Assembly (NCBI RefSeq): GCF_033100135.1
Contig: NZ_CP136920.1
Coordinates: forward strand, 1,860,001-1,924,000
Direction of reading: 5' to 3'
Length of the DNA stretch: 64,000 nt
Source of the DNA: Rubellicoccus peritrichatus
GTDB taxonomy: Bacteria; Verrucomicrobiota; Verrucomicrobiia; Opitutales; Cerasicoccaceae
The notes below the pieces were generated by a model. It worked only from the letters and a program-made list of their open reading frames with translations. It was not told the origin of the DNA and did not search any database. Position 1 is the first letter of the stretch; the number at the start of each line of letters is the position of its first letter. A program made the translations under genes and the position numbers. Positions 15,916 to 59,579 of this stretch are shown one piece after another.

Positions 15916-18180
15916 ATGCGATTCTCACTACTAAAAGTTGTCTTTATACTCGTTTCAATTGGCTTATTTGCTGGCTTGCGTGGACAAAGTCCAAGCTGCC
16001 TGCAAAGCTGGTGTATGGAGGATACCGTCCAGGATGGATGGTGTTTCAGTCCAGAGCTGGGCTGGTTTTACGGAGCGCTTTGTCCTTGGGTTTATATCAA
16101 TGACAGAGGCTGGTTTTACGCTGATGGACCTGATGAGCCTGATGGCGAACAATGGCTTTACAACAACTCCAATGGCTGGCTTTGGACTTCGTTGAGTAGT
16201 TTTCCGTTCCTTTGGAGCAATGATCTTCAGGATTGGATTGTCTATTATGACATCACGCTGACTGAGGGTGTCGTCCAAAGTGGTGGCACGGGTGTTCTTA
16301 CTGGACTGGGGGAAGCAACGATCAGCTTGTTTTTTGCAACTGGAACTGATGAACCACAGCTTCTGGAAAGAACCAGTAGTGACGAGGATAGCTCATTTTC
16401 TTTCACCACACCGTTGCAGGACGAAGGTGGCATTTATTATATCACCGCTGCGATAGGGGACGAAATCCTCCTTGCCTCCGCCTACGGGAATGAAGTGCCC
16501 CAGAACGTGACCATTAACGAAATGACCACTGTGGCCACGGCTTATGCCTTTGTTAATTTCTTTACTGAGAGTGGAGACATTCGTGGCGAATTGCTTGGTC
16601 TGGAAATTGCCTCTGGGATGGCGGCCAATGTCGTCAATATTGAAACGGGTGACTCGTCAGAAGTTCTGCTGACTTCACCCAATGCGGACCAGACGAATGC
16701 GCTGCGCTCCACCCGCAACCTGGCCAACCTGATCTCTGGTTGCGTCACCGATGAGGACACCTGCGCAGAGTTATTTGCAGTGACCACGCCACAAGACGGA
16801 GCTTCACCCAGCAACACCTTAGAAGCGCTCATCAATATCGCCCGTAATCCGGCCGAATCCGTCGATGATATCTACTCGCTTTCGCAAGTATCGCAACCTT
16901 TTCTGCCCACGCTGGTCCTGCCTCCTGACGCTTGGACGATTGCAGTCAAGGTAAACGACACGGGTGATCCGTCCTTTCCTTTTAGCGGCACGGCCAACAC
17001 CGTTTTTGATGACAGAGGATATGCTTGGATTAACAATAACACGATACAAGGGGAGTCTATTTCGACGATGAATGTCATTGTCTTGAAGCCGGATGGCAGT
17101 CCCTCTGACGGCATCAATGGCAATCCGCCTTCCGTTGTTCGGGGAGGTGGCATTTTGGGAGCTGGATTTGGCATCACGCGGAATAAAATCGACGGTTCGA
17201 TTTGGATCGGTAATTTCGGCTGGGGCGGGGATAATCCCGGACCTGGTGGCAATGGAAGTGTTGCCCACATAGCTGCCGATGGTATCGCGATTTCTCCCTC
17301 AGACGGTTTACAAGGTGGAACGGATCGTGTTCAGGGCATCATTGTGGACGACGACGGCAACGTCTGGAGTGCAAGTTATGGCAATAATAGCATTGTCGTG
17401 TTCCTGGATGGAAAGGCAGAGCGTTCTTTGGTAGCTGCAAACGTTGGATGCGGGCCATTTGGTCTTGCCCTGGCTGCTGATGGCACGGTGTGGGCATCCA
17501 CGGTTGGGGGAGATATATTTGGTCAGGCATCCTCATGCTCAGAGCCCAGTACCGTGACCCGATGGCGTATCAATGACGATCAAACCGCACTGGAATTGAT
17601 CTCTACAACGACTGTGGGCGAGGACGTGAAGGGTATCGACATCGACGTGGAAGGCTATGTCTGGGTGCCTTCAGGCGGCGAAGACAGGGTTTATCGGATA
17701 TCGCCTGATGGCAGCTCCTACGTGGGCTATCAAGGTGGGGGAATGAATAATCCGTGGTGTGTGCGTATCGATGATGGCGGTGACATCTGGGTGGCAAATA
17801 TTGGGCCCTTTGAGGTTTTACCGGGAAACCAGGTTTACCGGAATGCAGCTGTATCAAAAATCGCCGGACCCAATTCTCGTTCCGGCCAACCGGTTGGGAC
17901 TATTCTTTCGCCCAGCACTGGATTCACGCTACCTTCGGCTGGAGCGCCCGTTTTGCTTAGCGACGGCACGCCTCTTCGCGACACGGGAGATCCTGCTCAA
18001 CCCGCCTTTGTCCCATTCATGCGCTCGGTCAGTGCAGTTCCGGATCGCGCAGGGAATCTTTGGGTCACGAACAATTGGAAGCCTAATTTCCTCAGCAACC
18101 TGAATGGCGATCCTGGAGGCGACGGCATGATTATCTTCATCGGCTTGGCGGCACCGACCGAACCAGGCCGAACGCAATAG
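15916..18180 (+). CDS. Secreted protein: N-terminal aromatic repeat module plus Vgb/NHL-like beta-propeller
   Basis: 754 residues with signal peptide (to about residue 23, FAGLRGQ). Residues about 40-115 are three to four aromatic units of the form [P/Q]-W-[VL]-Y-x4-GW-[FL]-[YW] (CPWVYINDRGWFY, EQWLYNNSNGWLWT, FPFLWSNDLQDWIVYY). Similar units occur in the proteins at 31400 and 58860. A middle beta domain (about 120-320) is unassigned. The C-terminal half repeats DDDGNVWSASYGNNSIVVF, LAADGTVWAST and IDVEGYVWVPSGGEDRVYRI, the pattern of virginiamycin-B-lyase/NHL propellers. It starts 59 bases after rho and is probably surface-exposed or secreted. No enzymatic residues are evident, so the function is unknown. 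Confidence 0.85.
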   Translation: MRFSLLKVVFILVSIGLFAGLRGQSPSCLQSWCMEDTVQDGWCFSPELGWFYGALCPWVYINDRGWFYADGPDEPDGEQWLYNNSNGWLWTSLSSFPFLWSNDLQDWIVYYDITLTEGVVQSGGTGVLTGLGEATISLFFATGTDEPQLLERTSSDEDSSFSFTTPLQDEGGIYYITAAIGDEILLASAYGNEVPQNVTINEMTTVATAYAFVNFFTESGDIRGELLGLEIASGMAANVVNIETGDSSEVLLTSPNADQTNALRSTRNLANLISGCVTDEDTCAELFAVTTPQDGASPSNTLEALINIARNPAESVDDIYSLSQVSQPFLPTLVLPPDAWTIAVKVNDTGDPSFPFSGTANTVFDDRGYAWINNNTIQGESISTMNVIVLKPDGSPSDGINGNPPSVVRGGGILGAGFGITRNKIDGSIWIGNFGWGGDNPGPGGNGSVAHIAADGIAISPSDGLQGGTDRVQGIIVDDDGNVWSASYGNNSIVVFLDGKAERSLVAANVGCGPFGLALAADGTVWASTVGGDIFGQASSCSEPSTVTRWRINDDQTALELISTTTVGEDVKGIDIDVEGYVWVPSGGEDRVYRISPDGSSYVGYQGGGMNNPWCVRIDDGGDIWVANIGPFEVLPGNQVYRNAAVSKIAGPNSRSGQPVGTILSPSTGFTLPSAGAPVLLSDGTPLRDTGDPAQPAFVPFMRSVSAVPDRAGNLWVTNNWKPNFLSNLNGDPGGDGMIIFIGLAAPTEPGRTQ

Positions 18181-31258: not shown

Positions 31259-31399
31259 TATCATGCCAGGATGCTGTTTTCATCTTGCAGAATAAAGGCG
31301 TTCTATTGGTGTCTTGGTAGATGTGTTGAAGAATCAAGTTAGACAGCTTTTGTATGGAATTGCTTGACTTATATTGATGAATATGTGACTGGAAATATC

Positions 31400-32980
31400 A
31401 TGAGTATTTTTCGTCTTTTTTGTATCTTTCTTGGACTGACAACGGCACCTTGCTGGGCGGGTTATGGTTCTATATTGACGTATTTTGAATTTGGAACTGC
31501 TGATATCGTACGTGATGATAACCGTGATCGGGTTTATTGTTCGGTCCCTTCTAAAAACAGTGTCGTCATTCTGGACTCAAATTCTCTAGAGATTGTAAAA
31601 ACTATCTATGTCGGTAGTAATCCTGCCGGAATGGATGTTTCTTCAGATGGAACCAAATTGTATGTGGCTAATAATGGCACTAACCTCGAGGGTATTGCGG
31701 TTATTGACTTGGAGTTCTTTTCGGTATCTCATATCTCGACATTCAGTAACCCGAGAGACGTTGCGGTTGGCAACGGTATCGTATTTTCGCTGGAGGATGA
31801 GCTGCGTGCATACAGCGTAGAAAGTGGAATTCAGCTGGCTGGTTCCCTGTCGACTCATAATGGGGGCCTTCATATCTATGGCGGCTTAATTGATATCAGT
31901 CCTGATGGTAATACGCTTTATTATTATAATACTGGGTTGAGCCCATCATCGTGGTATTGGGTCGACGTATCTTCATGGCCTGGAGAGGTGATTCAAGGAG
32001 GGACTTGGGGTAGCAACGGCCAGGATATGGCTTTTAGTGCTGATGGCCAGTATGTGACTTTTGCTTCTGGAGCACCTTATTCCATTAGAAAGTTTTTAGC
32101 AGATGATCCATCGCAAAGTCTTGGTCAAATGGATACCGGAGCGTATCCGCAAGCTGTGGAATTTAGTGTTGATGGCGACTATATTTTTGCGGTTCATACG
32201 AGCAGTCATATTGATGTTTGGGATGCAAATGCATTTGTACTATATCGTGAAATACCCACTTCGGGGGAATTGCTTGATTTAGAATGTGATCGGCAGGGTG
32301 AGAAACTTTTTGCAGGATCAAGTATGAGTATTACGGTTTATGACATTAGTACTGGTCCCGCTGATGATGGACCGCAGGATGGTGAGCCGAAAGTGATTTC
32401 AGGCCCGGAGGGACGTTTGCGTGTTGCATTGGGTCAGCCCTTCGAGGCTGAAGTAATTGTTGAAGGAGAAGGGCTAATCTATCAGTGGTATAAGGATGGA
32501 ATCGCAATAATAGGAGAGCGTTCTACGATTTTGAGTTTAGAGAGTGCAACTGCTGATGATGAGGGGCTTTATCATCTACGCGTAAGCAATTTAGAAGGAT
32601 TGAGGGTCATTTCCTCAAAGTTCTATATTGATGTTGTCGTTCCAGGTGAAGTGCCAAGAGGGCTTGATGATGCTGTTGCCTACTCTTCTGGCTATCATGT
32701 TTCTGAGTGGTTTGGTCCCTTTTTTATGCCAATGACATCAATTGATACTTTTATCTACAGTCTCGATTTTGGATGGGTATGGTTATCTCCCGAGGGTAGT
32801 ACTGCTGGTGTTTGGTTTTGGAGTTACGAGCTGGAAAGTTGGCTTTGGGGGAGCAAGGGCACTGCACGGTTTTTTTATGATACATCCAGGAGTCTATGGC
32901 TTTTTGTTGAAAGTGTTGATGGAGGTGGGGCCTATGTCTTCAATAGTGTTGATGGCTCATGGATTCTTATTGAAGTGTAG
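31400..32980 (+). CDS. Secreted protein: YVTN-type propeller, Ig-like domain, C-terminal aromatic repeat module
   Basis: 526 residues from ATG at 31400, which gives a signal peptide (MSIFRLFCIFLGLTTAPCWA). Residues about 25-330 form a beta-propeller with IYVGSNPAGMDVSSDGTKLYVANNGT. Residues about 340-420 form an Ig-like domain (LIYQWYKDGIAIIGE, DDEGLYHLRVSNLEG). The last 95 residues contain four aromatic units (TFIYSLDFGWVWLSP, VWFWSYELESWLWGS, FFYDTSRSLWLF, YVFNSVDGSWILI). The same module is N-terminal at 15916 and forms most of the protein at 58860. It is presumably exported and envelope-bound. Function unknown. Confidence 0.85.
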   Translation: MSIFRLFCIFLGLTTAPCWAGYGSILTYFEFGTADIVRDDNRDRVYCSVPSKNSVVILDSNSLEIVKTIYVGSNPAGMDVSSDGTKLYVANNGTNLEGIAVIDLEFFSVSHISTFSNPRDVAVGNGIVFSLEDELRAYSVESGIQLAGSLSTHNGGLHIYGGLIDISPDGNTLYYYNTGLSPSSWYWVDVSSWPGEVIQGGTWGSNGQDMAFSADGQYVTFASGAPYSIRKFLADDPSQSLGQMDTGAYPQAVEFSVDGDYIFAVHTSSHIDVWDANAFVLYREIPTSGELLDLECDRQGEKLFAGSSMSITVYDISTGPADDGPQDGEPKVISGPEGRLRVALGQPFEAEVIVEGEGLIYQWYKDGIAIIGERSTILSLESATADDEGLYHLRVSNLEGLRVISSKFYIDVVVPGEVPRGLDDAVAYSSGYHVSEWFGPFFMPMTSIDTFIYSLDFGWVWLSPEGSTAGVWFWSYELESWLWGSKGTARFFYDTSRSLWLFVESVDGGGAYVFNSVDGSWILIEV

Positions 32981-58859: not shown

Positions 58860-59579
58860 CTACGGAGCGAGTACGACATCACCAAAGCTTATTCTTACGG
58901 GGATGCACCAGATGCTTAGATAAAGCAATTGGTCAGTGGAGAAGTCATTCGGCAGATAAAACCTGAGCGTTGCTCCGGAATAACCTCCATCCAGGAGCAA
59001 ATCACCAGTCAGCACGGTAAAATCGTCGTAATTGGCGCTCGTCGATACCACAGCTCTGACGTCAACACCGCCACCATCATAATTGAACCCTGTTATCTCG
59101 ATGACGCCATTGTTCAGGATTTGCACCTGGCCACTGACTTCATGGGCTCGCGTGACTAAATCCCCTTCAGAGACGACTTGCGTTGCTGAATCAGGTGCAC
59201 CCAGACTGAAAAAGTATTCTCCGGAAAAATTATAGAATAACGGGTCGCCGCTTGATTCGTCTGAGAAATAAATCCAGGCCTTGCTACCATCAGTATAAAT
59301 TGACGGGAAAGTGCTGTTCCCTGTGAAAATCCATCCCAGATCCAGAGAGTAAAGCCACATTGCGTCGGTTGTGGACGCTGCTGTGCAATAGAGCCAGCCG
59401 AGTCCGCTCTGGTAAATCCAGTCCGAGTCATTGGTAAAAAATACGCCGAGCCATTCGCTTTCGTAGAAACCGTTCCCGGTTGGAGTTGACTCGCCCCGTA
59501 GCAGGTCGCTGTCCGCCTTGAGCAAAGGGACTGCAGTGAATAAAACAAGTGTAGACAGGATGCGGCAGAACTTAAGCAT
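58860..59579 (-). CDS. Secreted aromatic-repeat protein
   Basis: 239 residues starting MLKFCRILSTLVLFTAVPLLKA (signal peptide). Residues about 35-130 are four aromatic units: SDWIYQSGLGWLYCTA, AMWLYSLDLGWIFTGN, SIYTDGSKAWIYFSD and LFYNFSGEYFFSLG, preceded by ESEWLGVFFTN. The remaining 110 residues form a beta-rich domain (EVSGQVQILNNGVIEITGF). The module also occurs at 15916 and 31400 in this window. Spacing and composition resemble cell-surface binding repeats such as choline-binding ones, but no named family is recognised. Likely envelope or matrix-bound. Confidence 0.82.
   Translation of the reverse strand: MLKFCRILSTLVLFTAVPLLKADSDLLRGESTPTGNGFYESEWLGVFFTNDSDWIYQSGLGWLYCTAASTTDAMWLYSLDLGWIFTGNSTFPSIYTDGSKAWIYFSDESSGDPLFYNFSGEYFFSLGAPDSATQVVSEGDLVTRAHEVSGQVQILNNGVIEITGFNYDGGGVDVRAVVSTSANYDDFTVLTGDLLLDGGYSGATLRFYLPNDFSTDQLLYLSIWCIPVRISFGDVVLAP

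Follow-up and report, generated by a model that had tools for sequence, protein, structure and literature searches.

The window analysed here, a 64-kb stretch of the Rubellicoccus peritrichatus genome (5.8 Mb, one contig), contains three genes whose products each carry a signal peptide and a single copy of an aromatic-rich module. The genes and domains are as follows:

15916-18180, + strand: host gene 1, encoding a signal peptide, the module and a Vgb/NHL-like propeller
16030-16257 (core 16057-16257), + strand: aromatic module of the 15916-18180 gene, N-terminal, behind the signal peptide
31400-32980, + strand: host gene 2, encoding a signal peptide, a YncE/lactonase-like propeller, an Ig-like domain and the module
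32687-32965 (core 32708-32926), + strand: aromatic module of the 31400-32980 gene, C-terminal
58860-59579, - strand: host gene 3, encoding a signal peptide, the module and DM13
59214-59474 (core 59235-59453), - strand: aromatic module of the 58860-59579 gene, N-terminal, followed by DM13
58869-59159, - strand: DM13 domain of the 58860-59579 protein (PF10517, 49.5 bits against a cut-off of 25)

A six-frame profile scan detected exactly three module copies in the window, at the sites where an earlier, sequence-only reading had placed them. In the order of the genes, the copies scored E-values of 7.7e-16, 3.9e-15 and 4.9e-23 with a profile built from this genome, and 3.5e-16, 1.6e-12 and 4.3e-24 with one built from other genomes. 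The alignment gives a unit spacing of about 19-20 residues (W columns 28, 48 and 67) rather than the 22-26 first proposed, and the module occupies only about a third of the 58860 protein, not most of it, the remainder including DM13. The propeller of host gene 1 matches Vgb_lyase at E 8.7e-07, below the cut-off, and its protein has an extra W/C-rich, hairpin-like stretch upstream of the module. The open frame of host gene 2 begins at a TTG at 31364, and the ATG at 31400 yields the signal peptide. The DM13 domain of host gene 3, a part to which the earlier reading gave no name, retains the Cys of a WC motif.

These copies are three of many. A search with the single 58860 copy matched 56 places in the R. 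peritrichatus genome, and iterating a profile over the fetched places gave 55 proteins with one module each; 55 is a lower bound, because the first genome search used one sequence only, so that the genome holds at least 55 copies where three had been claimed. Of these 55, 53 (all three window copies included) were found again at E < 1e-5 by an independent profile trained solely on 73 copies taken from other genomes. With this profile, no additional open frame matched among the 2,025 tested (about 1,970 of them non-module), nor did any of 2,200 composition-preserving shuffled modules. The matches together with the empty shuffles therefore indicate homology, not aromatic composition, and the earlier proposal of a shared module withstands that objection. 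Judged from sequence, the three window copies are one homologous domain of about 75-95 residues. Drift within the family is strong, with a median best identity between copies of 39%. Stop codons interrupt or shorten the copies near positions 3330551, 264983 and 3250140 of the R. peritrichatus contig (L033, L042 and L051), so part of the family may be in decay or short by nature.

A consensus derived from 128 copies reads roughly GxGWxxSxWFGxFxxxxxPWIYHxxLGWLYxxGxxxxxxWLYxxxLGWLWTSxxxYPxLYSxxxxxWLYYxxxxxxPRxFYDxxTxxW. W, Y and F account for 25% of module residues against 9% of those elsewhere in the hosts, and the module has hardly any lysine. The module comprises five beta-hairpins of about 20 residues each. 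AlphaFold2 predicted ten strands in five hairpins for two different copies modelled from independent alignments (own genome; other genomes), with pLDDT 89.7, for the copy of the 58860-59579 gene, and 90.5, and pTM 0.77 and 0.76, in line with the beta-hairpin architecture guessed at the outset. The aromatics are the conserved positions, far above the rest, and because they take turns with aliphatic residues along each strand, most of the conserved Trp and Tyr should face one side of the sheet.

Searches of Pfam, NCBIfam, PHROGs and PDB sequences gave no match to the module region above cut-off, as anticipated for a module without a named family; PDB-sequence matches with E 1e-5 were rejected as summed tiny kelch-like scores in designed six-fold repeats. 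Foldseek searches of PDB and BFVD with the two AlphaFold models found no solved or viral relative (best E 0.8-1.4), and VIA-align reached a best Z of 3.9, far below its stated noise level, for which reason ToxR/ToxS, LptA and trefoils were set aside as structural relatives. No choline-binding or OCRE structure was among the matches listed in these fold searches of PDB and BFVD, a result still compatible with a hairpin solenoid of the choline-binding type, and a description of the module was not found in the open-licence literature. Lack of a structural match is no proof of a new fold; the models suggest an autonomous small all-beta domain whose family, predicted fold and lineage appear new as far as these tools show, whereas the kind of thing it represents, a terminal surface-attachment or sorting module, is already known. 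We are close to certain that the copies form one portable, terminal domain family that is absent from the libraries searched.

A weak resemblance to OCRE (PF17780), below threshold, appeared in 6 of 38 members. OCRE likewise has short aromatic hairpins forming a beta-sheet with surface aromatics; the sheet is twisted and binds through an aromatic face (PMC5127646). By analogy with OCRE in splicing factors, the module might be a protein-protein domain that docks its hosts on proline-rich tails or on a scaffold protein at the surface. This seems improbable: among the matches listed the module scored 11.4 and 11.5 bits against a curated cut-off of 24.7, and no scaffold partner was found. OCRE also consists of six strands and belongs to eukaryotic, intracellular splicing factors.

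Placement is strongly terminal. In R. peritrichatus, 42 of the 55 copies end no more than 25 residues short of the C-terminus, 12 begin in the first 75 residues of the protein, following a signal peptide, and one is internal; the C-terminal copies stop 0-25 residues before the end of the frame and lack a hydrophobic helix. The 77 other-genome loci, which include three R. peritrichatus duplicates, comprise 55 C-terminal, 6 N-terminal and 11 other (mostly internal) copies and 5 cut by contig ends. A hydrophobicity rule recognised an export signal in 47 of the 55 hosts; the remainder comprises two truncated frames, one protein with a Tat-like motif and several whose N-termini resemble signal peptides by eye. 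Outside the module, the hosts fall into about 45 groups without mutual similarity (BLAST E 1e-8). They include multicopper oxidases, a cyclophilin, a MauG-like di-haem peroxidase, a subtilase with Ig domains, a metallophosphoesterase, a DUF1800 protein, a CAP protein, a nucleoside hydrolase, a serine hydrolase related to class C beta-lactamases, an LRR protein, the DM13 protein and propellers. The description of a portable module on exported proteins is thus borne out by the number of host groups and by the signal rule.

Such a range of hosts bears on two other explanations. The module could lack any ligand and serve solely to stabilise the ends of chains, as a structural cap or folding domain, which would suit its position, its strong drift and the shortened or stop-interrupted copies; but one cap would hardly serve some 45 unrelated hosts, and conservation at the aromatic positions far exceeds that at the others, making this the least probable of the explanations considered. 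Somewhat more plausible, yet still unlikely, is a carbohydrate-binding module that takes secreted enzymes to environmental polysaccharide substrates. An aromatic-rich beta domain attached to secreted proteins would fit such a role, as would a lineage of marine and aquatic polysaccharide degraders, but no polysaccharide-degrading enzymes occur among the hosts listed (the best 25 families of the census), which are oxidases, cyclophilin, DM13, nucleoside hydrolase, di-haem peroxidase and propellers.

Two hosts belong to the NCBIfam "choice-of-anchor" families I and M (NF038117 and NF038134), both above cut-off (L047, 481.8 bits against 300; L032, 65.2 against 55), and each has the module at its C-terminus, in the anchor position. 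Such families group proteins whose ends bear differing domains for sorting or anchoring. Terminal-domain exchange could be followed in one host family, the secreted cyclophilins related to the R. peritrichatus host, across 177 genomes of the order; DUF4331 and multicopper oxidase proteins were too rare in the order for an anchor-swap comparison. The module ends the cyclophilins of G000, G117, G063, G047, G031 and G028, by profile or as a visible tail; for the G055 cyclophilin, the same ending is indicated by open frames that coincide. The C-terminus is occupied by a different domain in family f14, by another in f8, and by nothing in many short cyclophilins; the module thus behaves like an exchangeable terminal part. 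In the f14 cyclophilins L150 and L152 (G013 and G035), a recurring C-terminal stretch, LPPGxYxAxVSGxxGxxGxALxEVYE, may be a second unnamed terminal domain.

The module was found in 53 of 177 genomes sampled from the order Opitutales, often in at least 29 copies, and sister genera in the same family as module-rich genomes have none or one. A survey of the phylum (388 genomes) found it in only two that lie outside the order. When 84,980 species were scanned with a strict peptide pattern, 21 loci matched; 20 carry a Verrucomicrobiota/Opitutales label, and the remaining one is in a Syntrophobacteraceae MAG. The suggestion that the module is characteristic of this lineage therefore agrees with its distribution. 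The Syntrophobacteraceae-labelled locus (L118, JARLHO010000080.1) has a C-terminal copy and may reflect horizontal transfer or mis-binning.

Genome G196 belongs to a different order; it has seven copies, and none occur in the other four of the five genomes of its genus. Five copies lie at 27-51 kb of contig C45, on which the 20-41 kb region encodes GT2 and GT4 glycosyltransferases, a Wzy_C ligase, a methyltransferase and an ABC-2 permease, and the first 17 kb hold unrelated genes; the other two, at 1.6-6.1 kb of contig C20, adjoin a GT4/GT2 gene. Most of these copies stop early, before the fifth hairpin. The polysaccharide link suggested by this neighbourhood is an association in one distant genome with shortened copies, not proof.

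Among known terminal systems, choline-binding modules would be the nearest functional model, by analogy. Built of aromatic hairpins that each span about 20 residues, they sit mostly at the C-terminus, or at the N-terminus in LytB and LytC (PMC4929436), and like the present module they (CW_binding_1, PF01473) occur on many exported proteins. In contrast to their variable tandem arrays, however, the domain described here has a fixed five hairpins, and its lineage differs and has an outer membrane. The kinship with choline-binding repeats that had been suggested finds no support in Pfam, where none of the 38 members matched PF01473 even at E 10; a search without a positive control found no PF01473 in the R. 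peritrichatus genome.

PEP-CTERM proteins show a sporadic distribution, many copies, C-terminal placement, diverse signal-peptide hosts and exopolysaccharide loci (PMC1569441). The module resembles the PEP-CTERM/exosortase system (PF07589, PF09721) as a terminal tag on dozens of diverse exported proteins with a patchy distribution and a possible exopolysaccharide link, but it is a folded domain (about 80 residues), has neither the PEP motif nor a transmembrane helix or basic tail, and can be N-terminal. The R. peritrichatus genome also yields at least 44 matches to PEP-CTERM and five to exosortase, so both systems coexist there. The module appears to belong to neither the choline-binding nor the PEP-CTERM system. 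An argument for independence from PEP-CTERM, drawn from f2 genomes without PF07589, was withdrawn, since exosortase is present there and PF07589 misses some PEP-CTERM sets (PMC1569441). Eight f2 genomes (G001, G027, G045, G060, G097, G131, G148 and G167) combine modules with 1-2 exosortase matches and no PF07589, pointing either to unrecognised substrates or to an exosortase with another role. In R. peritrichatus, one exosortase gene (G000:C1:3152103-3152993, - strand) lies about 3 kb from a MauG-like module host (L043), which may be chance.

The main rival explanation is an export or sorting signal for a dedicated outer-membrane secretion machine, with a role like that of the type IX cargo C-terminal domain and perhaps removed after export. 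The mostly C-terminal position, the many diverse hosts per genome and the patchy all-or-many distribution are as for type IX cargo (PMC11969387), and the type IX domain (PF18962) is likewise a beta-rich C-terminal domain on many unrelated secreted proteins. It differs, however, in being a seven-stranded sandwich or three-stranded sheet (PMC11969387) where the module has five hairpins, and 12 of the 55 module copies are N-terminal. PF18962 has no match in the R. peritrichatus genome, no processing site is visible in the module and a partner machine was not identified. We regard a sorting signal as a minority possibility, ahead of the others weighed above.

The best-supported function is non-covalent surface retention through a glycan-type ligand, to which we assign a probability of roughly 0.5. 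The host would leave the cytoplasm by Sec or Tat, and the module, whether N- or C-terminal in the mature protein, would bind a cell-surface polymer, most likely a surface or extracellular polysaccharide, through the conserved Trp and Tyr on one side of the sheet, so that exported proteins would be held outside the cell without a covalent link. We favour retention because each protein has one copy, C-terminal in 42 of 55 cases and directly after the signal peptide in 12; because nearly all hosts are exported and form about 45 unrelated groups rather than one pathway; because two hosts are in choice-of-anchor families and the module is exchanged in secreted cyclophilins; and because conserved aromatics alternate with aliphatics along the strands. 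All seven G196 copies in or next to polysaccharide-synthesis gene groups, with none in the genus mates, argue in the same direction, as does the N- or C-terminal placement of choline-binding modules (PMC4929436). Counting against retention, the polysaccharide link comes from G196 only and the R. peritrichatus module genes are scattered over the genome; in addition, a few other-genome copies are internal, and one sulfotransferase-like host (L122) lacks an obvious signal peptide. Of the original idea of surface attachment or glycan binding, attachment thus stands as the best inference, and the glycan would be its probable ligand.

To our knowledge, how bacteria of this phylum hold many exported enzymes at their surface is poorly known. 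More tentatively, the module may define an undescribed display system of an outer-membrane lineage, in which a new small all-beta fold would be the general non-covalent anchor of more than 50 exported proteins per genome, operating alongside PEP-CTERM and recognising a surface polysaccharide specific to the lineage. The module profile can be searched directly in any Opitutales genome or metagenome and could gather many proteins now called "hypothetical" into a single addressable group, probably a surface proteome; should the ligand prove to be a surface glycan, the module would be a candidate affinity or display tag. The L122 open frame, from ~5466 (+ strand), has a degenerate module near its C-terminus and adjoins a cyclophilin-module gene, and its product might act on a module-bound glycan.
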